Shown here: positions 6,120 to 48,944 of the stretch, one piece after another | How positions within the stretch are numbered: position 1 is the stretch's first letter | How the letters are laid out: each line of letters starts with the position of its first letter | Assembly: GCF_014284155.1 (NCBI RefSeq) | Contig: NZ_JACOFZ010000001.1 | Span: 186,001-250,000 of the forward strand | Origin: Affinundibacterium nitidum | GTDB taxonomy: Bacteria > Pseudomonadota > Gammaproteobacteria > Burkholderiales > Burkholderiaceae_D | Direction: 5' to 3' | Length of the DNA stretch: 64,000 nt | Made by a program: the position numbers and the translations under genes | Notes under the pieces: model-generated | Told to the model about the DNA's origin: nothing | What the model saw: only the letters and a program-made list of their open reading frames with translations | Database searches by the model: none

Positions 6120-6135
6120 TTCAAGCGAATTGCTG

Positions 6136-6207: not shown

Positions 6208-6234
6208 TGACGAAAGGTAATCTGCTTAGAAATA

Positions 6235-6259: not shown

Positions 6260-6322
6260 GCCATAAAGTAATTTCGGTTTCAGTGTCGATGAAACCATTC
6301 ATATTCCTCCTATCTCGATTCC

Positions 6323-7432: not shown

Positions 7433-7433
7433 T

Positions 7434-7856: not shown

Positions 7857-7883
7857 GGTGAAATTTGATCAAAATGGCTCTAC

Positions 7884-9056: not shown

Positions 9057-9312
9057 GTTCTAGCGTATTTGAATGTTAATGAGCACCCATTTTACTTAAA
9101 AAACAATTTTTGCGATCCATTCACTTAGACAATCTGGCAATAAGTTCATGTGTTAGCTTCAAAATTGGGAATTGCGGCTCTTTTACCTTGTTTCTCGAAG
9201 CATCGTTGATTTTGAATTCAAACATAATCCACCTTAGACAAATCCCCCAAGGCCAACGAAATTGCGAAAAAGTAGCGATTCGAAAACTCTGGATTCCGAT
9301 ACTACGAGGTGC

Positions 9313-14526: not shown

Positions 14527-14552
14527 GCTGGATAGGGGCTAGGGAATGAAAT

Positions 14553-14583
14553 AAAAACGCCGGCGAATAACCGGCGTTTTTTA
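14553..14583. terminator. Bidirectional Rho-independent terminator
   Basis: AAAAACGCCGG, short spacer, CCGGCGTTTTTT. The strong GC stem is flanked by an A-run on one side and a T-run on the other, so it can serve both the giant coiled-coil gene (plus) and the convergent histidine kinase gene (minus). Confidence 0.9.
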
Positions 14584-15936: not shown

Positions 15937-15947
15937 TTAATGAAGAT

Positions 15948-16673: not shown

Positions 16674-16955
16674 GATACTTCCCGAATATTGGATGAAATA
16701 GATGCTCGCAATTGCCTTTAGCGAGATCTTACTTGTAAAGGGATATCCGCAAAACAATTTTTTCTTGGTCTTTACAAACTGTTACAGACCTTACATAAAA
16801 GTGCTGTCATTGATGAGCTTCAAACGGTAGACTCAAGACATAAAAATTAACTTGGTCGTACCCTAGGGACGGCATAAAATAGAGGTAGTCGAAAAACCGC
16901 TGGCGGGAAGAGTGCGATTAACCACTAAAAATTGATTTTACCATCGAGAAGAATT

Positions 16956-17351
16956 TTGAAGACCTTGAAACACCTGCCGCTCGGAATCGGTTTTAGTATT
17001 TGCGCTTTGTTCATTGCGCAAGGGGCGGGCGCATCCCCTCAACAAGGTAAGGGCGGAGGAGTCCATCCCCGCTTTGAGGCGAAACAAAGACAGTTTCAGG
17101 AAATGCGTGCCAATCGTCAGGCTATGCGACAAGCAAAGCAGCAGAATCAAAAAGAGGGGGAGTCAATTCCAGCTCAAGCGGCTGGTGTGCAAGCTCAAAC
17201 ACCGCTTTCAAGTGCAGTGCAACAAAATCAAGGCCAGCTTGAAAGGGAACCTAATGTACGTTTTAATCGCTTGACTCCTGAGGAGCGTCAAGCGCTTCGA
17301 CGTCAAATCAAAGAGGCGCGCCGTGAAATTTATCTTCAGCGTCAACAATAA
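16956..17351 (+). CDS. Small exported Gln/Arg-rich protein
   Basis: 131 aa starting at TTG 16956 with GAGAAGAA just upstream; an in-frame TTG at 16932 is also possible. It has a signal peptide (KTLKHLPLGIGFSICALFIA, cleavage probably after GAGA), then a low-complexity mature part rich in Gln, Arg and Ala. The C-terminus RFNRLTPEERQALRRQIKEA resembles the short C-terminal helix of DUF3106-like or stress-related periplasmic proteins, but no function can be assigned. It is divergent from ompR and could be regulated by it; inference only. Confidence 0.7.
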   Translation: MKTLKHLPLGIGFSICALFIAQGAGASPQQGKGGGVHPRFEAKQRQFQEMRANRQAMRQAKQQNQKEGESIPAQAAGVQAQTPLSSAVQQNQGQLEREPNVRFNRLTPEERQALRRQIKEARREIYLQRQQ

Positions 17352-30911: not shown

Positions 30912-33900
30912 TCAACAAAAATTACGACTGCCACTTTCCAACTCTCCCAGTAGATGAGTTAAATCTACCAAGCGCTTCGCTATCAGGTGATGCACTCGAC
31001 CATCGGTTTGCCAAATGCCATAGACACCGAGTAATCTCGCATTCAATACTTCACGTCTTTGCTTTTCCACTAAATCAGGCCAAACGATCACGTTGACTGG
31101 CCCAGTTTCATCTTCTATCGTCACAAACAACACACCTTTGGCGGTACCTGGCCGCTGACGTACTGTGACGATGCCGCAGCCACGTGCGAATTGTTTGTTT
31201 TGGAAAGTATGCAAAACATCTGCGGGTAAAAAACGTTGTTTGAGTAAACGTGAACGTAATAAGGCAATTGGGTGCCTTCCCAAGGTCAAACCTTGGCTAT
31301 GATAATCGCCCACGATCTCTTGCGCTTCACTCGGTGCATGCAGTTGTGGCGTACGTTCTTCTAGTGTCGTTGGATGTAAGAGATCCTTGTCAGGTATCGC
31401 TGCGACAGCCTGCCATAGCGCTTGGCGACGATGCCCGGCTAGTGAGACTAGGGCGTTACCCGCTGCTAAAGCCTCGACATCTTGACGCTTTAACTCTGCA
31501 CGACGCGCAAGATCACTGACATCGCTAAATGGCTGCTGGGTGCGCGCAGCACTGATGCGTATGGCAGCCTCATGCGACATACCACGCAAGAGTGACATTC
31601 CCAGACGTACTGCAGGTTGTCGATAGCGGCCGTGCTCGTCACGTTGCTGTGCTTGCTCGATATTTTCAAGTCGCGCATCCCAATCGCTATATTGCACGTC
31701 GATTGCTCGTATTTCGATACCGTGTCGACGAGCATCTTGCACTAATTGCGATGGTGAATAAAAACCCATGGGTTGCGAGTTTAAGAGTGAACACAAAAAT
31801 ACAGCGGGTTCGTGACATTTGATCCAACAACTAGCATACGTAAGTAAAGCAAAGCTCGCTGCATGACTTTCGGGGAAACCATATTCACCAAAGCCCAACA
31901 TTTGATTGAAGACGCCGCTCGCAAACTCTTCTTCATAGCCATTTTTAATCATGGTATTGATGATGCGGTCTTTATAGTTCGCCAAACCACCTTTACGCTT
32001 CCACGCAGCCATCGCACGTCGCAATTCATCGGCTTCACCGGGACTAAAATCTGCTGCTGCCATCGCAATTTGCATGACCTGTTCTTGGAAGATAGGAACT
32101 CCCAAGGTACGCGATAAAATTTTCTCAATCGCGGGCTTGGGGTAGCTTACCGGCTCTATACCTTGTCGTCGTCTCAGATATGGATGCACCATGCCACCTT
32201 GAATCGGCCCCGGTCTAACGATAGCAACTTGGATGACGAGGTCGTAAAAAGTGCGAGGACGCAAGCGTGGCAACATCCCCATTTGTGCGCGTGATTCAAT
32301 CTGAAAAACACCGACGGTATCGGCTTTGCAAATCATGTCGTAAGTGACGGGGTCTTCCTGTGGAATATCTTGTATGCGTGAAGGTCTACCGGGCAAACTT
32401 GCCATTAAGTTTAAAGAACGTTTCAACGCAGAGAGCATACCTAGGGCGAGCACATCGACTTTCAATAAACCTAAGGATTCGAGGTCATCTTTGTCCCATT
32501 GAATTACGCTTCGCTCTTTCATGCTGGCGTTTTCGATCGGGACTAAGCGAGAAAGTTTGTCGCGGGCGATGACAAAACCACCGCTGTGTTGCGATAAATG
32601 GCGAGGAAAACCAAGTAACTGCGTCACTAGACCTGCCCATTGTTCGGCAATCGGCGAATTCGCATCTAATCCACTCTCGGTAAAGCGTTCTAGTAATGCA
32701 TGTTTACTATCAAACCAGCGATGCGATTTGGCTACCGCATCGATCAATGCTAAATCAACACCTAGCGCTTTGCCGACTTCTCGTAGTGCTCCTCGTGGAC
32801 GATAAGTATGTACCGCAGCCGCTAAAGCGGTACGATGCCGACCATATTTTCGATACAGATATTGAATCACTTCTTCACGTCGTTGATGTTCAAAATCGAC
32901 GTCGATATCGGGTGGTTCCCCACGTTCTTTAGACAAGAAACGCTCAAATAAAAGAATCCCATTTTCAGGGCTGACTTCCGTAATGTGCAAACAATAGCAG
33001 ACGACCGAATTAGCAGCAGAGCCGCGACCTTGACACAAAATATCTTGTGAACGGGCGTATTGCACAATGTCATACACCGTTAAAAAATACGGCTCGTAAG
33101 CGAGGTCGTTAATAAGGCTTAACTCGTGTTCAATCTTGGCGACTACTTCGTGCGACAAACCTCGCGGATAACGTTTTTCCGCCCCAGCATAAACTTCTTG
33201 CCGCAGATAAGACGCAGGTGTTTGCCCAGCTGGAACTAACTCATCAGGATACTCATAACGCAATTCATCGAGCGAAAACTGACAGAGATTGGCGATACGT
33301 ATGGTCTCTTGCAAAGCGCTCGCGGGGTAGATGTTACCGAGACGCAAACGCGAACGTAAATGCTGTTCTGCATTCGGTGCCAAATCATAACCACATTCGG
33401 CAATAGATCTACCTACACGAATCGATGTTAGCGTATCTTGTAAAGGTTTGCGCGAACGGACATGCATGCAGACATGGCCCACCGCAACCACCGGCTGCCC
33501 GAGCTGTTGCGCGATATGCTGTAATTGAACTTGCTGCCAATCGTCCATCGCTTGCATCAAGAGATTTAAACCTAACCATAGTCGCGAACCAAATAACTGT
33601 GATGCCCATATCGCCTGTTGTTCAAATAAGTTGGGATCGATCGGATATTCGGGCAACAAAATGATGAGGCAATGCGGCAGGCCTTGGATATGCGCCAATT
33701 GCAAAGGAGGGTGTGCGAAATCACTGGCAGTAATGGCGTACTCGCCTTTAATCACATCCTTACGCAAACGTGCTAACGTAATTAATTCACATAAATTGCC
33801 ATAGCCTTCGCGGTTTCGCGCAATCGCGATCAGGCGCATTTTTCCAAGCTGCGGATAGCGTGGGTCTTGATCTAATTGAAAATAGCTACCTATAAGTAGC

Positions 33901-34085
33901 GGCAATTGATGTTTTTTAGCTTCTTCATGCGCTCTCACAACGCCAGCTAAGGAGCATTCATCGGTAATTGCTAGCGCTTGGTATCCAAGCTTAACGGCAC
34001 GAGCAACCAATTCCTCCGCATGTGAGGCGCCATGCAGAAAAGTGAAATTAGAAAAACAGAATAATTCAGCGTAGTGGGGGAGCAT
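30912..34085 (-). CDS. dnaE2: Error-prone DNA polymerase (DnaE2 / ImuC)
   Basis: 1057 aa C-family polymerase, the translesion subunit of the SOS mutasome. N-terminal PHP domain (CFSNFTFLHGASHAEEL), catalytic palm with GRGSAANSVVCYCL and the acidic PDIDVDFEHQRREEV near residue 400, QHSGGFVIARDKL, and a C-terminal OB fold (VLFVTIEDETGPVNVIVWP). It lacks the C-terminal extension of the replicative DnaE that contacts the clamp, as usual for this class. Last gene of imuA-imuB-dnaE2; the start lies 66 nt after imuB. Confidence 0.96.
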   Translation of the reverse strand: MLPHYAELFCFSNFTFLHGASHAEELVARAVKLGYQALAITDECSLAGVVRAHEEAKKHQLPLLIGSYFQLDQDPRYPQLGKMRLIAIARNREGYGNLCELITLARLRKDVIKGEYAITASDFAHPPLQLAHIQGLPHCLIILLPEYPIDPNLFEQQAIWASQLFGSRLWLGLNLLMQAMDDWQQVQLQHIAQQLGQPVVAVGHVCMHVRSRKPLQDTLTSIRVGRSIAECGYDLAPNAEQHLRSRLRLGNIYPASALQETIRIANLCQFSLDELRYEYPDELVPAGQTPASYLRQEVYAGAEKRYPRGLSHEVVAKIEHELSLINDLAYEPYFLTVYDIVQYARSQDILCQGRGSAANSVVCYCLHITEVSPENGILLFERFLSKERGEPPDIDVDFEHQRREEVIQYLYRKYGRHRTALAAAVHTYRPRGALREVGKALGVDLALIDAVAKSHRWFDSKHALLERFTESGLDANSPIAEQWAGLVTQLLGFPRHLSQHSGGFVIARDKLSRLVPIENASMKERSVIQWDKDDLESLGLLKVDVLALGMLSALKRSLNLMASLPGRPSRIQDIPQEDPVTYDMICKADTVGVFQIESRAQMGMLPRLRPRTFYDLVIQVAIVRPGPIQGGMVHPYLRRRQGIEPVSYPKPAIEKILSRTLGVPIFQEQVMQIAMAAADFSPGEADELRRAMAAWKRKGGLANYKDRIINTMIKNGYEEEFASGVFNQMLGFGEYGFPESHAASFALLTYASCWIKCHEPAVFLCSLLNSQPMGFYSPSQLVQDARRHGIEIRAIDVQYSDWDARLENIEQAQQRDEHGRYRQPAVRLGMSLLRGMSHEAAIRISAARTQQPFSDVSDLARRAELKRQDVEALAAGNALVSLAGHRRQALWQAVAAIPDKDLLHPTTLEERTPQLHAPSEAQEIVGDYHSQGLTLGRHPIALLRSRLLKQRFLPADVLHTFQNKQFARGCGIVTVRQRPGTAKGVLFVTIEDETGPVNVIVWPDLVEKQRREVLNARLLGVYGIWQTDGRVHHLIAKRLVDLTHLLGELESGSRNFC

Positions 34086-34151
34086 GGTGTTTGTTTTCGT
34101 GGAATTCAGTTTCAGTTTTTAGAGAGGATTAAAGACTGAAAAATCCTAGGC

Positions 34152-35648
34152 TCAGCCAAACACTCCATGCAAATACCAAACCTCATCATCTTGTGCTTGC
34201 TGCGCATGTCCAATTCTTTCGCGGTAAATCCAACATCGAAGATGCTGTGCGTTTTCGGCGATGAAATAATCACGTGTTACTAGTTGGCCATTCCACCAAC
34301 CTGCTTCAATTCTTTCTGCTGGCGACATCAGTTTCAAGGCTGAACGATAATGCGGGCGATGCTGCCGTACCTCCAATAATTGTGGTTGCGGTAGTAACCA
34401 TGTGGGACGATAGGCGTTAGCAGAGATCGCTTCTCTCCTATTGGTTTTTTTCTGCAGAATAGAAACCCATTGATTGGCAATTTCAGGACGATGATCTGCT
34501 TGTGGTGCGGGATATAAAACGTTCTCTGCACCTAAACGCGCCACCAGTAATTCCATTAGCTTACTTTGTTCTTCTCGATTGCCGCCAGGCTCTGGGAACA
34601 AGTCAGCATTGGGGGCGTGCATAGGGCAAACTTGCTGGGCTGTGAGTCTGATCGCAATCGCAGGTGCATTTAACTGCAATCGACCAAGATGTTCTTTTAA
34701 TAGTTTGGATAGATGTTCTTCACGCCAACTAGCTTGTGCTAAGGGAATGTTCATCTGGCTTGGCGCACGAGCTTGTCTACCACGTTCATGTTCAAGTTCG
34801 AATTGCAGGCTAGTGACAGCGAGCTGTCGCTGCATCAGCCAACCACATAACTGCAACAGCAAGGCTTTTGCGAAATGAAAAATGATATCGGTATTTTCTA
34901 GACGATCGGGCAGCTCTAGTCGAGCGCTAAACTGTGCTGGTACTTCTAGCCACTGTTGTAGTTCTTGTTGTTCGCCATAAGCTAAATCTAGGCTGCGTAA
35001 GAGTTCTTTGCCGCAGCGTCTTTGTAAGCCCGCACGTGGCAATAGCCTTAATTCACCTAAGGTTTCGCAACCGATCCCTGTAAGCCAATCTAACCAAGTC
35101 TGTGCTGCTGGTAGTAGGCTAATGTGGAGAAGATTTAAACGTTGATGCAAACGTTTTTGTTTGAGCGCATAACGTAAATTAGGTTGTCGTGGTTGTTGTG
35201 TATGCCGTACTTGTTGCGCTAATAACCATGCACCTTGCGCACTAGCGGCAATACCGATTTGAGGGCTTAGGCCTAACTGTCTGATGGTTTGGATAATTAA
35301 ACGCCGCAAACGGCGAATTCCGCCAAACAAGGTCAGGCTCGCACCAACCCCCATCAAAATACTGGCGTTTTCGAGTAAACAAACTTGTGGGGTAAATTGT
35401 AGGCTGGCCATTGCAGCAGCCGATAAGCTTGCCTGTTCTCTTTCATGGTCTCTATTCTTAATTTCTGCTTCTGGCATCAACATATGCACACTACTCACGC
35501 GCATTCCGGTTTGAATACCGGCTTGGCGAGCGAGTTTAGACATCGTGAAAACACGTTGTTGCTCGACCACGACCAATGCCTTTTCAGCCAACCAAGGTGG
35601 GTGAAAAACTTCTAAGGGCAGATTCGGTAAGTGAATGACGACCCACAT
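34152..35648 (-). CDS. imuB: Y-family polymerase-like protein ImuB
   Basis: About 498 aa. Hub of the mutasome; it resembles Y-family polymerases but is usually catalytically dead and tethers DnaE2 to the beta clamp. N-terminal WVVIHLPNLPLEVF, a helix-hairpin-helix-like region (LDWLTGIGCETLGELRLLPR), and the C-terminal RLGAENVLYP segment. The family start is placed at ATG 35648 (MWVVIHLP); the frame is also open from ATG 35678. Either start lies inside the end of imuA, a 65-95 nt overlap that implies translational coupling. Confidence 0.93.
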   Translation of the reverse strand: MWVVIHLPNLPLEVFHPPWLAEKALVVVEQQRVFTMSKLARQAGIQTGMRVSSVHMLMPEAEIKNRDHEREQASLSAAAMASLQFTPQVCLLENASILMGVGASLTLFGGIRRLRRLIIQTIRQLGLSPQIGIAASAQGAWLLAQQVRHTQQPRQPNLRYALKQKRLHQRLNLLHISLLPAAQTWLDWLTGIGCETLGELRLLPRAGLQRRCGKELLRSLDLAYGEQQELQQWLEVPAQFSARLELPDRLENTDIIFHFAKALLLQLCGWLMQRQLAVTSLQFELEHERGRQARAPSQMNIPLAQASWREEHLSKLLKEHLGRLQLNAPAIAIRLTAQQVCPMHAPNADLFPEPGGNREEQSKLMELLVARLGAENVLYPAPQADHRPEIANQWVSILQKKTNRREAISANAYRPTWLLPQPQLLEVRQHRPHYRSALKLMSPAERIEAGWWNGQLVTRDYFIAENAQHLRCWIYRERIGHAQQAQDDEVWYLHGVFG

Positions 35649-36333
35649 CGATGGTATCGTTTTCGTTGCTGCTGGCATGAGAGGGTAAATGAATCCGAGA
35701 AAGCATAGGGAAGGGCAAAGTCATGGGCAAAAATAGTGCTTCATGCTTTTGTGCACCTCGACGTTTAATAAATGACAGTTGCAATCCACGCTGAGCTAGT
35801 TTGACTTGGATGCGTAAAATAGCAGGCGAGGGGTGATGGGCAAAATTAAGTGGCCTGATTACATAGAACAAAGTTCGCCCATGTTGAGCTACTAAATGTA
35901 AACGACGCAAAGCCTCAACTTTGATTTGGTTTTGCCAAAACAAGAGGGCTGCACAGCTACCACTACGTAAAATTTGCTCCGCCGTCCATAATGCATCGTT
36001 CATTTTGTTACAGCGTAGCCAAAGCAAACGATCTAGGCTGATTCCTGACTGTGCTAAGGCCATCGCCTGAGGTTGATAGGGTGTTTGCAAAAAAGCGATT
36101 TGTCCGTGACTATGCGCATTTAAGGCGGGGCGCAACAGTTGTAGTTCAGCTGACCCGCCATGCTCAATGAACAATTCAGTTAATGCACCCGTTGGCCATC
36201 CTCCTCCTGGTAACTCTTGCGAGAGTTGAGGGAATCCACATTCCACATAATCACCCACACCACGAGCAAGCTGGGAGGCCCGCCAAAGTGAGGGATGTAA
36301 TGTTTCTAATGATGTAGAAAACGCGAGCGACAT
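35584..36333 (-). CDS. imuA: SOS-associated RecA-like protein ImuA
   Basis: 249 aa. RecA/SulA-like accessory protein of the SOS mutasome (also called SulA2 in beta-proteobacteria). The N-terminal ASQLARGVGDYVECGFPQL and GGGWPTGALTELFI correspond to the degenerate RecA-type P-loop region, and LQLSFIKRRGAQ lies near the C-terminus. First gene of the operon; a consensus LexA operator ends 33 nt upstream of its start. Confidence 0.92.
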   Translation of the reverse strand: MSLAFSTSLETLHPSLWRASQLARGVGDYVECGFPQLSQELPGGGWPTGALTELFIEHGGSAELQLLRPALNAHSHGQIAFLQTPYQPQAMALAQSGISLDRLLWLRCNKMNDALWTAEQILRSGSCAALLFWQNQIKVEALRRLHLVAQHGRTLFYVIRPLNFAHHPSPAILRIQVKLAQRGLQLSFIKRRGAQKHEALFLPMTLPFPMLSRIHLPSHASSNENDTIDVGRHSLTESALRSFSPTLVG

Positions 36334-37083: not shown

Positions 37084-37722
37084 CTAGAATCCCAAGTCGG
37101 ATAGTAAATCGTCGACACTTTCTTGATTCAACTGAATACCGCCAACTGCGCCAGGACCCGCCAATAAATCATCTTTCTTGCGAGCAGAAATGGCACCATC
37201 CGGCGCGCCACTGATGAGCAAACCTAATAAGTCTTTTTCCGTACGTTCAAGTAAGGTCACGACTTTCTTAATCAATTGTCCAGTTAAATCCTGAAAATCT
37301 TGTGCCATCATAATTTCAGACAAGGCTTTTTCAGTCGTTGCGCTAGATGAATGCGCACTGGCAATAAACTCACGAGTTGATGCGGCCAGATTAAGTAGAT
37401 CTTCTTTAGAAAGAGCTTCAATATTGCTTGCATCCCATTGTTGCAGCAGGATGTTTGAATATTTGCTCAAGTTTTGTTGAATCGGCAGGGTATTTTCTAC
37501 CGTCGTCAGAACAGAGTTAGCAGCCTTTTCCGTTAATACTGCGACATGGTTTAAGCGCTCTCGAGCAGAAGGAAATTCATTAGATGCTTCTGCCAAAATT
37601 TCATCTGCACCAACCCAAGTGAGGGCATCATGCAAGGCACGAACCACGTGACCAAGCCCTTTATACATAAGCTCGGGATTATCGTCTTGCGCGTTGGTTG
37701 CAGCTGGGTTGGCATCCATCAT
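37084..37722 (-). CDS. cheZ: Protein phosphatase CheZ
   Basis: 212 aa. Dephosphorylates CheY-P to reset flagellar switching. It contains the catalytic motif MMAQDFQDLTGQLIKKVV with the Asp/Gln pair, a four-helix-bundle N-terminal part, and the CheY-binding C-terminal tail ESVDDLLSDLGF. AAGAAAGGACAG precedes the ATG pair. No chemotaxis or flagellar gene is nearby in this window, so it is an orphan or separated copy. A terminator lies just downstream. Confidence 0.92.
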   Translation of the reverse strand: MMDANPAATNAQDDNPELMYKGLGHVVRALHDALTWVGADEILAEASNEFPSARERLNHVAVLTEKAANSVLTTVENTLPIQQNLSKYSNILLQQWDASNIEALSKEDLLNLAASTREFIASAHSSSATTEKALSEIMMAQDFQDLTGQLIKKVVTLLERTEKDLLGLLISGAPDGAISARKKDDLLAGPGAVGGIQLNQESVDDLLSDLGF

Positions 37723-38180: not shown

Positions 38181-38771
38181 CTATTTTGACGCTTTGTTGA
38201 GTCCATCAGGCAATTGTAACTGCGGTCTTTCCGCTTCAAAAAGTAAGGAAATAATCCACCAACGTGTACCGTCATGCATCAACTGCACGCTATTAATGCC
38301 ACGACGTGTCACGTTATCTTTCTCTTCGAATGTTTCGTAGCTAGTAAAAACCTGGGCCAATTCTCCCCATTGCTCGGTTTTTCGAGCCAACTCTTTTTCG
38401 CGGAATCCAATTTCGATCAAACGAGGGCCTGAATTAGCAATGTAGTCGCTAATGCTCAGAATTCGTAAGCCTAGATCTTTACTGTCTTTTTTAGGAAAGA
38501 TAGCCATAATACGAGCCTCAGGAATGAAAAGAGAACGCATGCGATTCCAATTCCTTTGCTCACCGATACCTCCAGAGATGACGTCATAGAGAGCGGCAAT
38601 GATGCCATCAATCGATTGAACGTCAGCCGCGCGCGCTGGCGGTTGAACAACGCTAACAGGAGATGCTTGAGTGAGCATCGTTGGATTATCAACAGCCATG
38701 GCTGGATTAGTTAAAGCACTAACGAATAAACCAAGAGCAACGCAACAAGCAGATACGGATAATTTGTTCAT
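38181..38771 (-). CDS. Exported NTF2-like/SnoaL-fold protein
   Basis: 196 aa. Signal peptide (residues 1-26, CCVALGLFVSALTNPAMAVD). The mature part has the layout of the NTF2-like superfamily: helix IDGIIAALYDVISG, NWNRMRSLFIPEARIMAI, SISDYIANSG, and a final sheet with WGELAQVFTSYETFEEKD and GINSVQLMHDGTRWWII. No catalytic residues can be assigned. Likely periplasmic; it lies at the edge of an AT-rich non-coding region. Confidence 0.75.
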   Translation of the reverse strand: MNKLSVSACCVALGLFVSALTNPAMAVDNPTMLTQASPVSVVQPPARAADVQSIDGIIAALYDVISGGIGEQRNWNRMRSLFIPEARIMAIFPKKDSKDLGLRILSISDYIANSGPRLIEIGFREKELARKTEQWGELAQVFTSYETFEEKDNVTRRGINSVQLMHDGTRWWIISLLFEAERPQLQLPDGLNKASK

Positions 38772-38942
38772 GATGGTCCTTAAAATTGAAAGCTCTTGTT
38801 TGACAGCGATAAATAGTAAAGTTCAAAAGTCCATTATTGAGATTCGCAAAAAAGAACGCGTCAAAGGGCTTACAGCTGGATTAAAAATTCAAATGAAATA
38901 TCAATCGAAATACAGAAATCCCCTCTATAAGACACTTTCTAT

Positions 38943-38970
38943 ATTTCGCATAATTTATATTATGTAAAAT
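38943..38970. other. dif-like XerC/XerD recombination site
   Basis: 28 bp: left arm ATTTCGCATAA, centre TTTATA, right arm TTATGTAAAAT. Against E. coli dif (arms GGTGCGCATAA and TTATGTTAAAT, centre TGTATA) the right arm matches in 10 of 11 positions and the inner seven bases of the left arm (CGCATAA) match fully; 6-bp spacing is identical. Such a site resolves chromosome dimers at the replication terminus. Confidence 0.85.
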
Positions 38971-39398: not shown

Positions 39399-40364
39399 AT
39401 GACAGGCGAAGCGCGCATACATCATTGGGTTCCCCAGTGCTATTTGAAAGGTTTTGCTAAGAGTCACAGTAAAAAAGCACAATTAAATGTTATCGATATC
39501 AGCGCACGCAAATCGTTTATTGCAAATCCGCGAAATATAGCCTCCGCGCGTGATTTCAATCGTATTTCAGTTAAAGGGTTCGCTGCGAATCAGATTGAAG
39601 AAAATTATGCGGTATTTGAGGGTAAATTAGCTCGTGCACTACAGTGGATGTGGGTGCAGCGTCAACTGGGTAAAGCTAATGACTTTAATCTGTTACTCAA
39701 TTTGATAGCGTTGCTTGCGGTACGCAATCCAAGGATGAGGGAAAATGTCCGTGATTTTCATGAGCGAGTAATTAAAAAGATGATGCACATGACTGTAGAC
39801 TCTGAGCAAATGTACGAATCCACTTTTAATCGCGCCGCAAAGGATGGCTATGTCGCTTCAGATTCCAAGATCGACTATTTCCAGATGAAGGATTTCATTG
39901 GTAGCGAAAAATACTCGATTGCTATGTCTACCAGTGGCCATGTTGAGCGTGAATTAAAGTTGATTGACACCGTGTTGCCTCTGCTAGGCCGGCGGCATTG
40001 GATGCTTATGCGCGCGTCACCAGATAGTGGCGGGTTCATAACATCTGATCATCCCGTTTGTCTAATATGGAGCGAGCAACGAAAACGAAGCCTTTTCGAT
40101 TCACCAGGCTTTGGTTTAAAAGGAACAGAGGTGGTGTTTCCTGTATCACATGACCTAGCGGTAGTTGGAACATTTGAAATGCAGCTAGGCGAAATCGACA
40201 TAACTTTAGATCAAGTTGCTCTGGTCAATGGCATCATCGTCGCTCATGCCGAGCGTCAGGTTTACTCCCGAGACGATAAATTTTTCTATACGTTAGCCGA
40301 TAGAAGCGTGCACCGCGGCGCAGACCTACTTCGAAATTTCACCCGCCTATCCAAGAAATATTGA
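39399..40364 (+). CDS. DUF4238 protein
   Basis: 321 aa. Begins with the family signature HHWVPQCYLKGFA and continues NVIDISARKSFIANPRNIASARDFN and ITSDHPVCLIW. DUF4238 proteins are of unknown function and often sit on mobile elements or near defence genes. AAGGATAAG precedes ATG 39399. It is flanked by short inverted repeats and by an AT-rich spacer on both sides, which fits a transferred cargo gene. Confidence 0.85.
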   Translation: MTGEARIHHWVPQCYLKGFAKSHSKKAQLNVIDISARKSFIANPRNIASARDFNRISVKGFAANQIEENYAVFEGKLARALQWMWVQRQLGKANDFNLLLNLIALLAVRNPRMRENVRDFHERVIKKMMHMTVDSEQMYESTFNRAAKDGYVASDSKIDYFQMKDFIGSEKYSIAMSTSGHVERELKLIDTVLPLLGRRHWMLMRASPDSGGFITSDHPVCLIWSEQRKRSLFDSPGFGLKGTEVVFPVSHDLAVVGTFEMQLGEIDITLDQVALVNGIIVAHAERQVYSRDDKFFYTLADRSVHRGADLLRNFTRLSKKY

Positions 40365-40712: not shown

Positions 40713-41732
40713 TTAGCCCTTCTTTTTATCTGCAAAATGTCCCTGAAATTCGGCCAGGATCATTTTTTGAGTTTCAATCACGGCTACGGATTTGACCAGT
40801 TCCATTTTTTGCGCATGGACCTCTGCTTTCAGTTCATTGTTTTGCGCAGAGATTTCCGATTGTTGATTTCTTAATTCAAATATAGCCACTTCTTTTGTTG
40901 CCAAGTCAGACTCCAGCAGAGGTATACGACCTGTTGCGACCTTGAGTGATTCAATCTCAGTAACATGTTTGCGCTCAACATTTTGCAGCTCGTAAAGGAC
41001 CTTCTGTGTCTGCGAAAGCTCCGCAACGAGCCTAGCGCCATCCTGATTGAGTCCTGTAATCTCATTCTGCTTATGCACCAGGCTTTGCTGTAGGTGGCGA
41101 ATTTCGCCTTGTAGCTGCTGTACCTGGTGTTCGTGGCGCCGGATATCTTGGTCGCGTTGCGCCTTTACTGACTCGCGATAATGTTCTAATGCCTCCCGAG
41201 CATGGGTGTGCTTGGTTTCCAAAGATTGCCGGTGCGCCTCGTTTTCGCCTAGGCGTTCTTTCAAGTCAGCTACCTGTTGTTCCAGCGTGTGGCGCAAAAT
41301 CGTTTCGCGTTGCAACGACTCTGCGGTTCTGGTGTGTGCTGCCACTTCGCTTTGAATTCTGGAATCGACAGCGCTTAATTTGTCGCTTAGTTCCTCATTG
41401 GCGGTGGTTAATGCTGCAATTGATGCATTGAGCTGTCGTTCCTTCTCTGTACTTTGCGTCTGCACTTCGCAAATCCGCACGTTTGCCTCATCCTCCAACC
41501 GGATAGCCAAGCTTGCAACCAGATCATGCAAGGCTTCGCTGATAGAAGCTTTTCGATCAGTAATTCCGCCATCTTCAACCTCGAGTTCTTTGAGGTATTT
41601 ATGGATAGTCGATTTGGATCCTGTGTTTCCGAGCTCAATGCGAACAGCATCAACTGAAGGATGTCGCCCCTGCGCAATCAAGGATTCACGTGCCCTTTTC
41701 ACTTCGGATTTGTATAAGCCAGTTCGCGCCAT
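40713..41732 (-). CDS. tnpT: KfrA-like coiled-coil DNA-binding protein (TnpT-like)
   Basis: About 339 aa from ATG 41732 (MARTGLYKSEV), with GAAGTGATGAT upstream; an in-frame upstream ATG at 41762 is possible. N-terminal KfrA_N-type DNA-binding domain (GRHPSVDAVRIELGNTGSKS, residues about 10-60) followed by a long coiled coil to the end. It is divergent from a tyrosine recombinase, 173 nt away. This pair matches the tnpT/tnpS cointegrate-resolution genes of Tn4651-like Tn3-family transposons, where TnpT binds the resolution site and helps TnpS. Plasmid KfrA is the alternative reading. The symbol is inferred from domain content and gene arrangement. Confidence 0.75.
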   Translation of the reverse strand: MARTGLYKSEVKRARESLIAQGRHPSVDAVRIELGNTGSKSTIHKYLKELEVEDGGITDRKASISEALHDLVASLAIRLEDEANVRICEVQTQSTEKERQLNASIAALTTANEELSDKLSAVDSRIQSEVAAHTRTAESLQRETILRHTLEQQVADLKERLGENEAHRQSLETKHTHAREALEHYRESVKAQRDQDIRRHEHQVQQLQGEIRHLQQSLVHKQNEITGLNQDGARLVAELSQTQKVLYELQNVERKHVTEIESLKVATGRIPLLESDLATKEVAIFELRNQQSEISAQNNELKAEVHAQKMELVKSVAVIETQKMILAEFQGHFADKKKG

Positions 41733-41760
41733 ATCATCACTTCGTTGAATATCGTACTTC

Positions 41761-41782
41761 ATTACGTAATATGTAATTACAT
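41761..41782. promoter_or_regulatory. Palindromic operator candidate for the KfrA-like protein
   Basis: Contains the perfect palindrome ATGTAATTACAT (41771-41782) overlapping ATTACGTAAT (41761-41770). It lies directly upstream of the KfrA-like start. KfrA-type proteins are autoregulators that bind such operators. Confidence 0.5.
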
Positions 41783-41905: not shown

Positions 41906-42853
41906 ATGAGTAAGATTGATCAATACATTCAAGCGGCTACCCGCGACAATACACGGCAAAGTTACCAGGCGGCAGTTCGTCATTTTGAGTTTGAGTGGGG
42001 AGGCTTTTTACCCGCTACTGCTGACAATATCTCGAATTATTTGGCGGCTTATGCGGAAACGCTTTCAATCAATACATTGCGGCAGCGTCTAGCAGCTCTT
42101 GCGCAGTGGCATATTTCCCAAGGATTTCCCGACCCCACTAAATCGCCTGTCGTTCGCAAGGTATTTCGGGGCATACAAGCTCTGCATCCGGCCAGAAAGA
42201 AACAAGCAAGGCCACTGCAGCTTGATCAACTTGAGCAGGTAGTTAAATGGTTGAACGGTTCAATTGACGCGGCATGCCACAGTGGTGATCGTCAAAAGGA
42301 GCTTCGTTATGTTCGTGACAAAGCGCTTTTATTAGTTGGTTTTTGGCGCGGCTTCCGTGGCGATGAGCTAGTACGATTGCGGATTGAGCATATTGAGGTC
42401 GAACATGGCAAAGGAATGACCTGTTATCTTTCTCAGACCAAAGGTGATCGCCATTACAAGGGAACTAGTTTTAAGACCCCTGCTCTTTCCAGGCTTTGTC
42501 CCGTAGAAGCTTATTTGGAATGGACTAAGGTTTCACAGTTGACCTCTGGACCAGTATTTCGTGCCATTGATCGATGGGGCCATATTGATAATCGTGGTTT
42601 GCATCAAGATAGTCTTGTGCCAATTTTTCGAACTATATTGCAAAATGCTGGAATCACAGATGTTGAGCGTTACAGTGGGCATTCTTTACGTCGAGGGTTC
42701 GCCAATTGGACAAATTCAAATAACTGGGACATTAAGACTTTGATGGAGTATGTTGGTTGGAAAAATATTCAGTCTGCAATTCGCTATATAGACTCTGCAG
42801 ATCCATATTCTCAAAGACGTATAGAGTCAGGCTTAAAGAAAGGCGATAAATAG
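41906..42853 (+). CDS. tnpS: Tyrosine recombinase (TnpS-like cointegrate resolvase)
   Basis: 315 aa. N-terminal SAM-like core-binding domain (residues about 1-90), then the catalytic domain with Arg in GFWRGFRGDELVRLR, Lys in SQTKGDRHYKG, H-x-x-R in SGHSLRRGFANW, Trp (in place of the second His) in YVGWKN and nucleophile Tyr in SAIRYIDSA. All catalytic positions are present, so it may be active. No transposase gene is visible around it. Gene pairing with a KfrA-like gene and the intervening rst-like core suggest a Tn4651-type resolution module. Weak ribosome-binding site. Confidence 0.8.
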   Translation: MSKIDQYIQAATRDNTRQSYQAAVRHFEFEWGGFLPATADNISNYLAAYAETLSINTLRQRLAALAQWHISQGFPDPTKSPVVRKVFRGIQALHPARKKQARPLQLDQLEQVVKWLNGSIDAACHSGDRQKELRYVRDKALLLVGFWRGFRGDELVRLRIEHIEVEHGKGMTCYLSQTKGDRHYKGTSFKTPALSRLCPVEAYLEWTKVSQLTSGPVFRAIDRWGHIDNRGLHQDSLVPIFRTILQNAGITDVERYSGHSLRRGFANWTNSNNWDIKTLMEYVGWKNIQSAIRYIDSADPYSQRRIESGLKKGDK

Positions 42854-42998: not shown

Positions 42999-43520
42999 TT
43001 ATAACAATTTCGCTTTAATCTCGAACGAAATCGTTTCTAATCGCTCCCTTTGGATCAGCTCCTGATGGCTCAAATGGACTCCACTCAATCCTTCTTGCGC
43101 ACTGAGTCTATCCAAAAAATCAGTAAGAGCATTTATACTTTTTGCTTCTCCTCTTAGAATAATCAAGCGACTATTTTTATCAGGCGCAAGTTCTAACAAT
43201 TCAATTTCCTTATTGCTCGAACGCTCGATGGCTTGAAATAAACGAGTCCATGGAAAATCACGCTCCGCTGATAGTTGCGCCCATTTCTTTTGGAATTCAA
43301 GATCCTTACTCGATACCTTTATTTTTTCCGGCAAATTCGAGGCTCTTGAAAGTCTTTCGAGTTTTCGATTCAAATTGGCAACATCATTCTCACGCTCCAT
43401 CAAGTCGGCGACAAAGTAACTTGCTCCAGCAAGAAAACTCAACAACAACACCAACAAAATCGGCGATCGATGCGATTGCGGCTTGAGGTAGTTTTTTGTT
43501 TTTACGGTTTGTTCCAACAT
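42999..43520 (-). CDS. PilN/GspL-C-like assembly protein
   Basis: 173 aa, bitopic: membrane segment near residues 19-38, a short coiled coil, then a PilN-type ferredoxin-like fold ending IKAKLL. Last gene of the secretion operon; overlaps the end of the PilM-like gene by 19 nt. Works with the PilM-like, PilO-like and PilP-like proteins as the inner-membrane platform. Confidence 0.78.
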   Translation of the reverse strand: MLEQTVKTKNYLKPQSHRSPILLVLLLSFLAGASYFVADLMERENDVANLNRKLERLSRASNLPEKIKVSSKDLEFQKKWAQLSAERDFPWTRLFQAIERSSNKEIELLELAPDKNSRLIILRGEAKSINALTDFLDRLSAQEGLSGVHLSHQELIQRERLETISFEIKAKLL

Positions 43521-44284
43521 TCCCGCTCCAATTTATTGACCGACTTCACAAGAGGAAAATGATCTCGCATTTCACTAGGCACGCGGTCCTTGGCCACACC
43601 CCAGAAATCGAGTATCTCAAGCTCGGTGTAACGTAGGCTAATTCTCGAGAAGAGACGCTTTATCGCTTGATCCTGGCTGGCTGTGACGGGTTCGATTTCG
43701 TAATGAATGTTTCCCTCTTGATCAAAAATCCAGGCACTTAATGAGTTCGTCTCCTCGCAAACCACAACTGTCGAAGAGCGCACTTTCTTAAAATAAGTAC
43801 TAAAAAATACTTCAGCGGATAATGGGATTACCCGTTTCAATTTAAGTTGTGCACTATCTACCGTAGAAGCTAAGGTTTCAACAAAAACCTTCGGCAACGC
43901 GTATGCCAAACCAACGGCTTGATAGCGCGGATAATTTGCAAAAAGTAGTTGGGACTCATCTACTTTCATGCCAAACTTAGCTAGCCAGAAAATCGCGAAG
44001 CTCTCCAATTCAGATTGCGACATCGCTGTCTCTTGCCATGGGAGGGTTGAGATCATTGCAAGGCGATCCGAAACCGTAATGCTGACGGTACTCCTTGGCT
44101 TAATTTTGCTCCTCACTTCGGCTAACATGCTACTCAAGGCCTGCACAAAAAATTCTTGTAGCGCTGTCAGATCAGCATCAACATCGATTTCAGTCGTACG
44201 CTCAACTTGGAGCTCGCCCACTTTCAGCCAGCATTTCCCACAACACAAACCAACATGAATTCTCTTAGGCGATAAAAGTGACAC
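43502..44284 (-). CDS. PilM/GspL-N-like actin-fold protein
   Basis: 260 aa cytoplasmic protein in the operon position of PilM. It has segments such as VSITVSDRLAMISTLPW and VVVCEETNSLSAWIFDQEG. Sequence is diverged; assignment rests on gene order between GspE and a PilN-like protein. It may substitute for the N-terminal domain of GspL that docks the ATPase. Confidence 0.62.
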   Translation of the reverse strand: MSLLSPKRIHVGLCCGKCWLKVGELQVERTTEIDVDADLTALQEFFVQALSSMLAEVRSKIKPRSTVSITVSDRLAMISTLPWQETAMSQSELESFAIFWLAKFGMKVDESQLLFANYPRYQAVGLAYALPKVFVETLASTVDSAQLKLKRVIPLSAEVFFSTYFKKVRSSTVVVCEETNSLSAWIFDQEGNIHYEIEPVTASQDQAIKRLFSRISLRYTELEILDFWGVAKDRVPSEMRDHFPLVKSVNKLERECWNKP

Positions 44285-45911
44285 GATTCACCTCTTGTAG
44301 TGTTGTATGGCCTTCACGCACCAATTCGAGCGCCACATCGCGTAAGAAACGCGTTCCTTCTTTTCTGGCTTGTTCTTTCATCGCACGAATTGAGGCGCGG
44401 GCGATAATCATTTCACGTATCTCATCTGTCAATCGCAATACCTCAGCGATTGCACGTCGTCCCTTGTAACCAGTATTACGGCATTGCTGACAGCCACGTC
44501 CTGCATGGAATCGATAATTCTGCGGATCGTCAATGCCAGACTCTCGCAATAGCTCTTCCGAGACTTGAACTGGTTCGTTACAGTGTGGGCAGTTTTGACG
44601 TAACAAGCGCTGCGCAACGACACCCGTAAGTGAAGAAACAAAGTTATAGGGGTCGACACCCATGTGCATAAAGCGACCAATGACATCGAAGGTATTGTTT
44701 GCATGCACAGACGTGAACACCATGTGACCAGTCAAGGCGGATTGCACTGCAATTTGCGCAGTTTCTGGGTCGCGAATCTCACCGACCAAAATTTTGTCAG
44801 GATCATGACGCAAAATAGACCGCAAACCAACGGCAAAGGTCAGCCCTTTTTTTTCATTCACAGGGATCTGCAAAACGCCAGGCAATTGGTATTCAACAGG
44901 GTCTTCAATGGTGATGAATTTGTCTTCGCCATGATTAATCTCGGTGAGCGCCGCATACAAGGTGGTTGTCTTACCGCTCCCGGTGGGCCCAGTCACTAGC
45001 ATCATCCCATAAGGCTCGGCAGCCAAGCGTCGCAAGCTCTGTATGGTTGGGCGATCAAAGCCCAATGAATCGAGCGTCAGTTTTTGTACGCTATCAATTA
45101 AGGCCTTTTTATCGAGAATACGAAGGACGGCGTCCTCGCCATGGATACTCGGCATGATCGAAACCCGAATATCAATATCACGGCCTTTGGTCGCCACGCG
45201 GAAACGGCCATCTTGCGGAATACGTTTTTCAGCGATGTCGAGCTCAGCCAATACTTTGATCCTAGCGATGGCCTGCTCAGCCAAGCCTAGATTATTCACG
45301 CCAGCAATTTTGTTTAACACGCCGTCGATACGAAACTTAATCACCAGCCCTTGAGGCAAAGATTCAATATGAATGTCACTTGCTTCTAAACGCAGCGCAT
45401 CGAATAGCGTTGAATTGATCAAGCGCACAGCTGGGCTAGATTCGCCCTGAATCGACGTCAACGTCATATCATCGCTGGCATCTCGCTCAATTTCTTCGAC
45501 AGCATCTAAACCAACAGCGTCTGCCACCGCGCTATAGCTCGATTCATATTGTTCGAGTTTCTCGAGAATGAGTTGTGGGTTCGCAAGGTAAATTTCATGT
45601 AAAGCGAAGGACTTCAGTCTTAGCCCTAATCCTGCTTCAAACGGATTGCCAATCACCGCAGACAAGCGTTTTTGATCATCGTAGCCAAGCACAAGCGTGC
45701 GCTCAACCATCTCCGCATAGGACATATGATCGAACGATGGCTCAAAGTCGGTGCTAGAGAAATCATGCAAAACTGGATAGCACATCAACTCACCAGCTTG
45801 GCTCAGCGCATCTCGTTCAGACAAATTCAGCTGCGCGCACAATTGACGAAGCCAGTCATGCGCTGGCACCGCAGATTGCACTACTTGATTGAGAGTTTGA
45901 GCATTCAACAT
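44265..45911 (-). CDS. gspE: Type II secretion system ATPase GspE
   Basis: 548 aa from ATG 45911 (MLNAQTLNQ); an in-frame TTG at 45920 is less likely. Hexameric ATPase powering pseudopilus assembly. Walker A GPTGSGKTTTLYAAL, Asp box and Walker B LRHDPDKILVGEIRDPET, His box GHMVFTSVHANN, and the zinc-binding C-x2-C pairs CPHC and CQQC. Overlaps the PilM-like gene by about 20 nt; gspF lies 16 nt upstream. Confidence 0.95.
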   Translation of the reverse strand: MLNAQTLNQVVQSAVPAHDWLRQLCAQLNLSERDALSQAGELMCYPVLHDFSSTDFEPSFDHMSYAEMVERTLVLGYDDQKRLSAVIGNPFEAGLGLRLKSFALHEIYLANPQLILEKLEQYESSYSAVADAVGLDAVEEIERDASDDMTLTSIQGESSPAVRLINSTLFDALRLEASDIHIESLPQGLVIKFRIDGVLNKIAGVNNLGLAEQAIARIKVLAELDIAEKRIPQDGRFRVATKGRDIDIRVSIMPSIHGEDAVLRILDKKALIDSVQKLTLDSLGFDRPTIQSLRRLAAEPYGMMLVTGPTGSGKTTTLYAALTEINHGEDKFITIEDPVEYQLPGVLQIPVNEKKGLTFAVGLRSILRHDPDKILVGEIRDPETAQIAVQSALTGHMVFTSVHANNTFDVIGRFMHMGVDPYNFVSSLTGVVAQRLLRQNCPHCNEPVQVSEELLRESGIDDPQNYRFHAGRGCQQCRNTGYKGRRAIAEVLRLTDEIREMIIARASIRAMKEQARKEGTRFLRDVALELVREGHTTLQEVNRVTFIA

Positions 45912-45927
45912 GGGAATCAATAAATCA

Positions 45928-47115
45928 CTAAGCGATATTCGCTAATTCAAAAATCGGGCTATACAACATCAACACAATCAAGCCAATGATCAAACCTATA
46001 CTCACCATTAACACGGGTTCAATGAAGCGACCAGCTGTGTCAATCCAAATCGAGGTTTCTTGATCATAAAAATCGGCAATTCGTTCCATCATTTCATCAA
46101 GATTGCCAGAAGACTCACCCGCTACTAATAAGCGTTGCGCAATTTCAGTACTCAGTCCGTGGGTTGAAAACGATTCGGAAAATGGCTTGCCTTCACTCAC
46201 ATCTCGAATCGCTGATTCCATATTCTCATGCATCTGAACGGGCAAAGATGCTTTAGTCATTGTCATCGCGGCGATTACACTGACACCGCTCTTCAGTAAC
46301 ATGCCCATGGTGCGATACATACGAGCCAGTTGCAGCAGCCACACACGCTCACCTATCCACGGCGTTTGCAAAACCTTATTCGCCAGCCATGCACGTGTTT
46401 TTGGATGGGTTGCGATGATCAACACGGCACTCACCAAAATCACCAGCACCGATAGCAAACTCAAAGTATGCTCACGCACCAATTTGCCCCACCATTGCAC
46501 AAAGCCATGCTTCGCCGCTTGCGAAGACATCGTATCTTCATAGATAGCACTGAAGCGAGGCAGCACATAAAACATCAAAAACGATACCACCAGAAAACCC
46601 ACGCCTAACAAGATCGCCGGGTACGTTGCTGCAGCCACTAGCTTATTACGAATCTCATTGACCTGACTTTGATACTGCATAAAGCGCTTGATCGAGGCCT
46701 TAATGCTGCCTGTGGTTTCACTCGACTTGACCATTGCCACATACAATGAAGGAAACGTCGACGGCAACTTGGCCATTGCCTCTGACAATTGATTACCTTC
46801 GCGCAGCGCATGCAATAAAGTGTCAAATGTCGCACGGTACTGACCACGTTTATCGTTCTTACCAAGTACTTCGATCGAATCAACTACTGTTTGTCCAGCT
46901 TCAAGCAAAGACAACAACTGCTGGTTAAACACAGGCAAGTTGAAAGCCTTTTTCGACTGGCGACGGAACTGTCCGCCTCCCACATCCTTCAAGCCAAGCA
47001 GATGCTGGCCAGAAAGTTCGACAAACTTTCTCGCCTCAATATCGTTTTCTGCTTCCACCTCAACAAAATCTATTTGCCCTGAGGATGAAACAACTTTTGC
47101 TTGAAACCGCTTCAC
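45928..47115 (-). CDS. gspF: Type II secretion inner-membrane platform protein GspF
   Basis: 395 aa polytopic PilC/GspF protein with two GspF domains: KSSETTGSIKASIKRFM and GESSGNLDEMMERIADFYD, and three membrane segments (about 165-190, 220-245, 370-390). Forms the membrane base that GspE turns. Confidence 0.94.
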   Translation of the reverse strand: MKRFQAKVVSSSGQIDFVEVEAENDIEARKFVELSGQHLLGLKDVGGGQFRRQSKKAFNLPVFNQQLLSLLEAGQTVVDSIEVLGKNDKRGQYRATFDTLLHALREGNQLSEAMAKLPSTFPSLYVAMVKSSETTGSIKASIKRFMQYQSQVNEIRNKLVAAATYPAILLGVGFLVVSFLMFYVLPRFSAIYEDTMSSQAAKHGFVQWWGKLVREHTLSLLSVLVILVSAVLIIATHPKTRAWLANKVLQTPWIGERVWLLQLARMYRTMGMLLKSGVSVIAAMTMTKASLPVQMHENMESAIRDVSEGKPFSESFSTHGLSTEIAQRLLVAGESSGNLDEMMERIADFYDQETSIWIDTAGRFIEPVLMVSIGLIIGLIVLMLYSPIFELANIA

Positions 47116-47133
47116 TGTTTAACCAAATAGCTT

Positions 47134-47568
47134 TTATTGACCCCAGTTGGTGATATCTGCATCTTCACCAGAGCCGCCAGATTTGCCATCCGCACCATAC
47201 GATACGATTTCGTAATCACGGCCTTCTGTGCCAGGAGAACGGAAAACATAGGCAGCATTCCATGGGTCTAATGGAATCACTTTTTTCAAATAAGGGCCGC
47301 GCCATAATGGCTCGTTCGCAGGCTGAGCAAACAAGGCATTCAAACCTTGCTCGGTTGTTGGGAAGTGGCCAGTATCGAGGCGATATTGATCGATACCTTT
47401 ATCAAATGCATCAATTTGTGCTTTCGCTGATTGAATTTTTGATTTGCCGATTTGACCAAAATATTTTGGTGCCACAAATGCCGCCAACAAACCGAGGATG
47501 ACAATCACCACCAGCAATTCCAATAGCGTGAAACCGCCTTGTTTCTTAGTCTTCTGTTGCATACCCAT
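47134..47568 (-). CDS. gspG: Major pseudopilin GspG
   Basis: 144 aa. Prepilin cleavage site QGG|FTLLELLVVIVILGLLAA with Glu5 intact, then the GspG fold PTTEQGLNALF, GPYLKKVIPLDPWN and the calcium-binding loop SPGTEGRDYEIVSYGADGK. It is the clearest member of the pseudopilin set. Confidence 0.95.
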   Translation of the reverse strand: MGMQQKTKKQGGFTLLELLVVIVILGLLAAFVAPKYFGQIGKSKIQSAKAQIDAFDKGIDQYRLDTGHFPTTEQGLNALFAQPANEPLWRGPYLKKVIPLDPWNAAYVFRSPGTEGRDYEIVSYGADGKSGGSGEDADITNWGQ

Positions 47569-47583
47569 CTGAATCTCTCCTCA

Positions 47584-48057
47584 TTACTTGGGTTGATAAA
47601 CAAAGCGCCAATCTGTGTAGTGCTTTGCATTTTTAAAACTTACTTCATCGATATCAAAACCATCTACTTTAAACGGTGCATTTTTCGACAAGGAAAAAAC
47701 ACCCATTACACCACCACTCTCGTGATAAACCACACCCCACTCTTCACCGTTCGTGATCGGGTCACGATATAAGCGTCGCAGTGGTCGACGAATGCGTGTT
47801 GCTCGTGCATCCGTCAGTAATGCTTGTAAATCGGGCGGATAGGTTTTCAAGGTCCCTGGTGAATTTTCGTAATAACTCTTGATCGCATCACGATACGCAC
47901 GTCCCACCCACATCAGCTGGGCTTCCTTCTCCCGCTTTGCCTTGGTCAACATATTTCCCACACCATGCATGGCTGCGGCAGACACCACTGCCACCACAAA
48001 CATGGTGATCACATAATTAAAGCCGCCCTGACGACGCCTTACCAGTCTTTGAACCAT
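47584..48057 (-). CDS. Atypical minor pseudopilin-like protein
   Basis: 157 aa. N-terminal GGFNYVITMFVVAVVSAAAM has the prepilin Gly-Phe but no Glu at position 5, as in tip pseudopilins such as GspK. It carries a helix, a YP/PxxLQALL segment and LYRDPITNGEEWGVVY like other minor pseudopilins in this cluster. A tip position is inferred. Confidence 0.72.
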   Translation of the reverse strand: MVQRLVRRRQGGFNYVITMFVVAVVSAAAMHGVGNMLTKAKREKEAQLMWVGRAYRDAIKSYYENSPGTLKTYPPDLQALLTDARATRIRRPLRRLYRDPITNGEEWGVVYHESGGVMGVFSLSKNAPFKVDGFDIDEVSFKNAKHYTDWRFVYQPK

Positions 48058-48419
48058 GTGCCATCTATCGCTTTATTCGGCGCAGCGGAACGTACATTCG
48101 CTATTGCCCCTAAACTCCCATCCTCTGGCGGCAACACCACCCAACTGTTTGAGCTTCGCGTATAAGGATCAACAGGAATACTACGCAAATACTTTTCCGT
48201 GACGAGGTCGGCAAGCTGCTCAGGATATTTATTCTTATCTGCATAAAACTTATCAATCGCGTCACGCAAGATATAGAGATCCTCGCGTAGCACAGCTTCT
48301 TTCGTTTTATCAATGTTCGAAAAGTAGCGCGGTGCCGCGACCGTCAGCATGACGGCAACTATCGCCATCGCCACCATCAGTTCAATCATCGTAAAGCCAG
48401 ATGCCTTCTTCATCACCAC
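48039..48419 (-). CDS. Minor pseudopilin
   Basis: 126 aa. Prepilin start ASG|FTMIELMVAMAIVAVM with Glu5, then DLYILRDAIDKFYADKNKYP and a C-terminal SIPVDPYTRSSNSWV. Overlaps the following gene by 19 nt and the preceding one by 7 nt, indicating translational coupling. Confidence 0.85.
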   Translation of the reverse strand: MVMKKASGFTMIELMVAMAIVAVMLTVAAPRYFSNIDKTKEAVLREDLYILRDAIDKFYADKNKYPEQLADLVTEKYLRSIPVDPYTRSSNSWVVLPPEDGSLGAIANVRSAAPNKAIDGTWFKDW

Positions 48420-48895
48420 TCCGAATACGGAACACCGTTCAATCCCATTGCACTCGATTTCGAGTACACATCAAACACATCAGCACCTGCACTGGGCCTA
48501 TCAAAGTCTGAAGCGAAACTACGCAAGCCCCAAGTATCGACCGCAGGCACAGACGCATCCGCAAAGAATGGATCACGCGGCACCCTACGCAAAAACTTCA
48601 ACTTCGGCCCTCCTGGCCGGGTCGTATCGTCCATGCCAATCACCAAGTCCAACAATGTCGCTGGGTATCCACTATCTTCAGGGCGCGTCAAAATTTTTCC
48701 TTGCGCACTCGCTGCTTTGTACGCATCCAAAGCGGTGCGGATTTCATTCAAAGCCGAACGTAACTCGCGTTCTTTTCCTCTGCGCACTGCATTCTCCATC
48801 ACAGGCACAGCCACTGTCGCCAAAATCGCCAAGATGGCGACTGAGGCTAACAGCTCAATAAAGCTAAATCCGCGTTGTGATGCTTGCTTAGTCAT
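48413..48895 (-). CDS. Minor pseudopilin
   Basis: 160 aa. Prepilin start QRG|FSFIELLASVAILAILA with Glu5 intact, then ELRSALNEIRTALDAYK, RPEDSGYPATLLDL and VPRDPFFADAS. Preceded by two tandem start-codon copies (see the repeat at 48888-48923). Confidence 0.85.
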   Translation of the reverse strand: MTKQASQRGFSFIELLASVAILAILATVAVPVMENAVRRGKERELRSALNEIRTALDAYKAASAQGKILTRPEDSGYPATLLDLVIGMDDTTRPGGPKLKFLRRVPRDPFFADASVPAVDTWGLRSFASDFDRPSAGADVFDVYSKSSAMGLNGVPYSEW

Positions 48896-48923
48896 TCACT
48901 TAGTCATTCAATTGGTCATGAAC
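48888..48923 (-). repeat. Three tandem 12-bp repeats over the pseudopilin start
   Basis: Reading the gene strand: ATGACCAATTGA, ATGACTAAGTGA, then ATGACTAAGCAA, which opens the real gene. The first two units are complete three-codon mini-ORFs ending in TGA directly followed by the next ATG. No strong ribosome-binding site is seen. Confidence 0.75.
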
Positions 48924-48944
48924 TTAAGATTCGAGATGAAGGTC

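Follow-up and report, generated by a model that had tools for sequence, protein, structure and literature searches.

The window, i.e., the whole stretch of 64,000 nucleotides analyzed here, corresponds to positions 186001–250000 of contig C11 (1,785,884 bases), which belongs to a draft genome of 4,383,866 bases in 80 contigs with 99.69% completeness. It contains, exactly at 38943–38970 (224943–224970 of the contig), the 28-base sequence ATTTCGCATAA-TTTATA-TTATGTAAAAT, which lies among the following features.

37084–37722, minus strand: CheZ chemotaxis phosphatase (PF04344, E 2e-53); beside dif in 2 of 20 loci of relatives
38181–38771, minus strand: 196-aa protein with no Pfam or NCBIfam match, on the XerC side; a related gene lies beside dif in 4 of 20 loci of relatives
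38943–38953, plus strand: XerC-binding arm of dif, ATTTCGCATAA; inner seven bases as in E. coli dif, outer bases differing between relatives
38954–38959, plus strand: central hexamer TTTATA; T at dif position 13, as in all 37 sites found in the genus (own included)
38960–38970, plus strand: XerD-binding arm of dif, TTATGTAAAAT; 10 of 11 bases as in E. coli dif
39399–40364, plus strand: candidate anti-phage gene encoding a DUF4238 protein, on the XerD side (PF14022; PADLOC DUF4238-Pers, E 6.5e-58)
40713–41762, minus strand: KfrA_N DNA-binding protein, divergent partner of the recombinase (PF11740, E 3.3e-24; weak SMC matches)
41906–42853, plus strand: tyrosine recombinase (PF00589; 28.6 bits against the XerD cut-off of 329.6, 26.3 bits against the XerC cut-off of 335.15)

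The dif site and its neighborhood

The preliminary description had proposed a dif-like site with 11-bp arms and a 6-bp center, matching E. coli dif in 10 of 11 positions of the XerD arm and in all seven inner bases of the XerC arm, and base-by-base comparison bears this out. Against the E. coli K12 dif printed as GGTGCGCATAATGTATATTATGTTAAAT in Carnoy and Roten (2009; PMC2731167), a study of dif/XerCD in proteobacteria of which we used the available portions, 23 of 28 positions are identical (XerC arm, 8/11, including all of the inner seven; center, 5/6; XerD arm, 10/11). The departures from the E. coli site are a T for G at position 13, an A for T in the XerD arm, and ATTT as the outer XerC arm; T at position 13 also occurs in the Ralstonia solanacearum dif tabulated there (PMC2731167). 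The site is placed between the ORFs at 38181–38771 (minus) and 39399–40364 (plus), overlapped by a mechanically called 98-aa ORF at 38671–38967, and only 4 of its 28 bases are G or C, a non-coding position and a low G+C content being listed features of dif (PMC2731167).

A window search with a degenerate dif pattern, allowing up to 3 mismatches, returned this single match (0 in 100 shuffles), and a pattern of 20 specified letters with the same tolerance gave one match in the 80 contigs of the draft (control pattern, 0). A second dif was therefore found neither in the window nor in the genome at ≤3 mismatches, and the better match elsewhere that was to be sought against the preliminary description did not appear among the 80 contigs.

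To the right of dif, the DUF4238 gene is followed by the divergent KfrA_N and recombinase genes and then by a secretion or pilus operon, a minus-strand run at 42999–51323 with PilN, T2SSE, T2SSF, T2SSG, N-methylation-motif, and secretin proteins. PADLOC applied to ten chosen proteins matched the DUF4238 protein only. To the left lies a minus-strand run at 30912–36333 with a DNA polymerase III alpha-type gene (1057 aa), an IMS-domain gene, and a third gene, which resembles an ImuA-ImuB-DnaE2 mutagenesis cassette; ImuB-like genes occur within 10 kb of dif in 3 of 20 loci of relatives. The recurrences of the CheZ gene (80% match to Undibacterium seohonense) and of the 196-aa gene are both on the XerC side of the relatives' dif. 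The 39–43 kb island was also considered as a Xer-integrated element; a core-pattern search for the dif-like partner site this would require turned up, apart from dif itself, a single 3-mismatch match, at 12650 (chance mean, 0.30). No convincing repeats bounding the island were seen in 30–60 kb, and no tRNA genes were found in the window.

Strand bias and the Xer machinery

Cumulative GC skew over the first 400,000 bases of contig C11 shows an overall rise to the left, a maximum at window position 42891, and an overall fall to the right, so that the maximum lies 3.9 kb from dif within these 400 kb of an 80-contig draft, as compared with a skew-to-dif distance of 39,100 bases given for E. coli (PMC2731167). 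Within the window, positive GC skew predominates on the left and negative skew on the right, with values close to zero at about 31–43 kb. The octamer GGGNAGGG occurs on the contig 9 times on the plus and 3 times on the minus strand to the left of dif, and 2 and 50 times, respectively, to the right. On this contig, the change of polarity is best placed at 221708–239187, an interval that includes dif. A reversed control octamer is equally polar genome-wide (63 and 104, versus 55 and 104 for GGGNAGGG), its counts over the 400 kb being 10 and 4 on the left and 1 and 6 on the right, and the polarity of GGGNAGGG thus mainly reports the strand bias and is no specific proof of FtsK signals. A change of skew or of KOPS polarity near 38.9 kb had been set beforehand as a test of the terminus assignment, and both changes are present, that of GGGNAGGG being no stronger than that of the control octamer.

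The orientation of the genes had been described as mostly plus on the left and mostly minus on the right, with 30.9–38.8 kb as an exception, and a mechanical longest-ORF cover agrees with this: 21 plus and 5 minus to the left of 30.9 kb (21/26 plus), 0 plus and 5 minus in 30.9–38.9 kb (all five minus), and 3 plus and 15 minus to the right of dif (15/18 minus). The site is positioned at the switch of both GC skew and strand polarity. That the chromosome terminus falls within this window, as first suggested, is supported by the unique dif match, the skew peak 3.9 kb away, and the interval of the polarity switch; dif indicates the terminus region, not the exact point at which the forks meet.

The genome encodes the three proteins expected to act at dif. 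XerC scores 346.8 bits (cut-off 335.15) and XerD 375.8 bits (cut-off 329.6), and FtsK_gamma has one match in the genome (E 2.9e-27), the FtsK piece of 567 aa reaching 733 bits, below the equivalog cut-off of 1566. Seven integrase-domain matches are present in the genome, four of which were scanned against the curated XerC/XerD cut-offs; the recombinase in the window and the fourth scanned integrase (L053) fall below both.

By analogy with the known system, XerC and XerD would bind the site, exchange strands, and resolve dimers in the following way. An odd number of crossovers would join the sister chromosomes into a dimer, and FtsK at the septum would pump the DNA along the strand bias toward dif. 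The gamma domain of FtsK would then activate XerD, whereupon XerC and XerD bound to their arms would swap strands at the 6-bp center, thereby restoring the monomers.

In its 28-bp length with the 11-6-11 layout, intergenic position, low G+C content, location at the skew switch, and occurrence as a single site in the draft, the sequence resembles E. coli dif and the dif/XerCD systems of proteobacteria, as described in the available portions of PMC2731167. We conclude, with a probability of about 0.96, that it is the ordinary chromosomal dif of an Undibacterium species. The kind of site is already known, and the present one is a further example.

dif in relatives and its filamentous prophages

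Of 35 other genomes of the genus, 32 matched the 20-letter pattern with no more than 1 mismatch, and a shorter pattern found dif in all of four further ones, giving a site in 37 of 40 sampled genomes, own included. When 27 loci of the genus (own included) were placed side by side, the flanks were mostly divergent and the site constant, i.e., dif is conserved in relatives amid differing surroundings. In eight of these 27 loci (L004, L006, L007, L010, L019, L024, L027, and L029), GCAACA stands about 23 bases before the XerC arm; it is absent from the locus in the window. All 37 sites of the genus have T at dif position 13. Of 24 genomes belonging to other families in the order, 19 gave a match, those with 2–3 mismatches possibly arising in part by chance, and the commonest center was TGTATA (9/19). 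A special meaning of the TTTATA center was considered and rejected, since no other position of the dif center is said to vary as much as position 13 (PMC2731167); the T is ordinary variation.

Among the 35 genomes, no dif match was found in G014 and G018, and G032 gave a 3-mismatch match only. Three of 40 genomes of the genus without a convincing site, one of them a single contig (G014), could be taken to mean that the site, although real, is a relic without function and that dimers are resolved by another route. The arms and center are, however, kept amid divergent flanks, XerC, XerD, and FtsK are all encoded in the genome, and the case of G014 points elsewhere: its sequence (L217) is 99.98% identical to that of its sister G016 (L152) over 8.3 kb, but the dif segment is absent, and the match is confined to the far side of dif, where a 79-base piece lies at 1.26 kb and the long one begins at 1.65 kb. 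Since near-identity resumes only there, the comparison indicates that the segment was deleted or misassembled in G014 rather than decayed. We consider a relic highly improbable.

In two genomes of the same genus, filamentous prophages are seated in dif (at about 8756–17170 of locus L147 and about 6030–16177 of locus L148). These relatives (G004 and G027), genomes other than that of the window, carry a second site, CGAAAAC-TTTATA-TTATGT(T or A)AAAT, located 8,387 and 10,120 bases downstream of dif, respectively, so that the prophages are flanked by dif-like sites, the XerC arm being degenerate in both second sites. The phage genes between the sites encode a Zot-like protein (phrog_197), a replication protein, and a regulator (phrog_638) in both genomes; those of G027 additionally encode a protein related to M13 protein IV. 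Judging from this arrangement, the elements are probably prophages that entered dif via the host XerCD, a route already known for such phages, with a degenerate XerC arm on the phage side. They resemble the dif-integrated filamentous prophage of another betaproteobacterium, Cupriavidus taiwanensis STM 6018, also flanked by dif-like sites according to the available part of PMC10011098, and differ from it in belonging to another genus; the window itself has no such prophage beside dif.

Because prophages are seated in dif of these two relatives, the host Xer recombinases probably used dif there, and the genus-wide set of dif sites together with the two natural phage insertions suggests that the TTTATA center is compatible with Xer use. 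For the genus, the insertions provide indirect evidence of a working dif. The same insertions, along with the accessory genes on the XerD side of dif, would also suit the reading that the 28 bases in the window are a dif-like attachment site remaining from a phage or another Xer-using element, the true dif lying elsewhere. Opposed to this are the lack of a second site with ≤3 mismatches in the genome, the coincidence of the strand-bias switch with this very site, and its two intact arms, unlike the degenerate XerC arm of the second sites in G004 and G027. The attachment-site reading is thus largely refuted already and has very little chance of being correct.

The KfrA–recombinase pair

The recombinase at 41906–42853 is, by the curated cut-offs, neither XerC nor XerD. 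Its divergent neighbor shares the KfrA_N domain with the KfrA proteins of plasmids and differs from these in being encoded on the chromosome, divergently from a recombinase gene and near dif. In a partial literature search, no report joining KfrA, a recombinase, and dif was found, the mentions of KfrA being on plasmids as judged by title. Relatives of the recombinase are present in 25 of 40 genomes of the genus (own included), and a KfrA-like gene adjoins it divergently in 16 of 20 fetched loci (L197–L216), the four exceptions being one locus cut by the contig end (L202), one with a shortened recombinase (L198), and two with another gene in that place (L200 and L201). Among 13 copies compared, the similarity common to many covers the two genes and the gap between them, some pairs sharing more, and no common terminal repeat was recognized at the module ends; the module may be regarded as a candidate mobile element only. 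The large conserved neighbors were considered as a restriction system, but Pfam on ten chosen neighbors in relatives showed other families, namely RND efflux parts, a metal-type ATPase, an FeoB-like protein, an ABC protein, and a Tn3 transposase. The efflux genes and the transposase are what one would expect to see in an accessory hotspot.

The search of the genus lists 42 matched recombinase stretches, of which 19, in 13 genomes, are on dif-bearing contigs. Eighteen of these lie within 60 kb of dif (2.5 expected under uniform placement), including the copy in the window, which prompted the question; two of the four G028 stretches are not full-length and could both derive from a single gene. 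Five further stretches (G002, G031, two on C10 of G030, and C23 of G013) sit so deep inside long dif-less contigs that 149 kb or more must separate them from dif, with stops within those of G031 and G013 and the second of G030. Thus, 18 of 24 judgeable stretches of the genus, or 17 of 23 without the window's own copy, are within 60 kb of dif, as compared with 6 of 52 other integrase-domain matches (2.7 expected), a control that includes the housekeeping xerC and xerD, is confined to dif-bearing contigs, and was drawn from among the matches listed, a set lacking the weakest ones. G004 and G023 contribute recombinase stretches and no controls. Fisher's test gives p values of 8e-8 (18/24), 2e-7 (17/23), and 7e-11 (uncorrected 18/19), all of which overstate the case because related genomes are not independent. 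The count leaves aside the stretches of G014 and G032, genomes that yielded no dif, as well as stretches located on short contigs or close to the end of a contig (G004:C26, G007, G010, G011, G013, G017, G030, and G026, the last at least 57 kb from dif). In two genomes whose dif was found later, the recombinase and dif are 27 kb apart (G062), and four would-be extra controls include none within 60 kb (G063). Other integrases are also near dif in some genomes; in G005 and G033 (L218 and L219), two other integrase genes lie on one strand within 2.5 kb of dif.

In a sample of the order, 30 of 250 genomes gave a recombinase match at E ≤1e-25 (own and two other members of the genus included), and dif was searched for in 19 of the 30 (one a genus member), nine weak ones being left out. 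The start-to-start distance from the recombinase to a dif-like site on the same contig is 21 kb in G204, 14 kb in G287, 4.4 kb in G213, and 104 kb in G269. Other copies must be far away, at least 170 kb in G148, at least 313 kb in G160, and at least 73 kb from a candidate site for one of two copies in G223, and G049 has ambiguous dif candidates at 435 and 624 kb. A clear dif site was sought in G066, G077, G079, and G123 and not found, and in the remaining outside genomes the contigs do not allow the distance to be judged. An order-wide link between the recombinase and dif was accordingly weakened once the contig extents were checked; with 3 of 8 outside the genus within 60 kb, the link is weaker there than within it.

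One interpretation is that the KfrA–recombinase pair represents a module family tied to the terminus in Undibacterium and some relatives, being either a mobile element drawn to insert there or a locus kept for an action on terminus DNA. We put this forward tentatively, as somewhat more apt to fail than to hold, its odds being lowered because some copies must lie far from dif. The alternatives for the pair near dif are that it inserts near the terminus, that it is kept there, or that the terminus simply tolerates the module. The pair beside dif is less expected than dif itself and, as a lead, may deserve more study; if the link holds, it can be asked, and tested, by what means a recombinase module locates the terminus or remains there. 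The dif site, for its part, locates the terminus of the chromosome, within which the neighboring accessory genes fall, and in this genus the terminus is also the place where filamentous phages enter.
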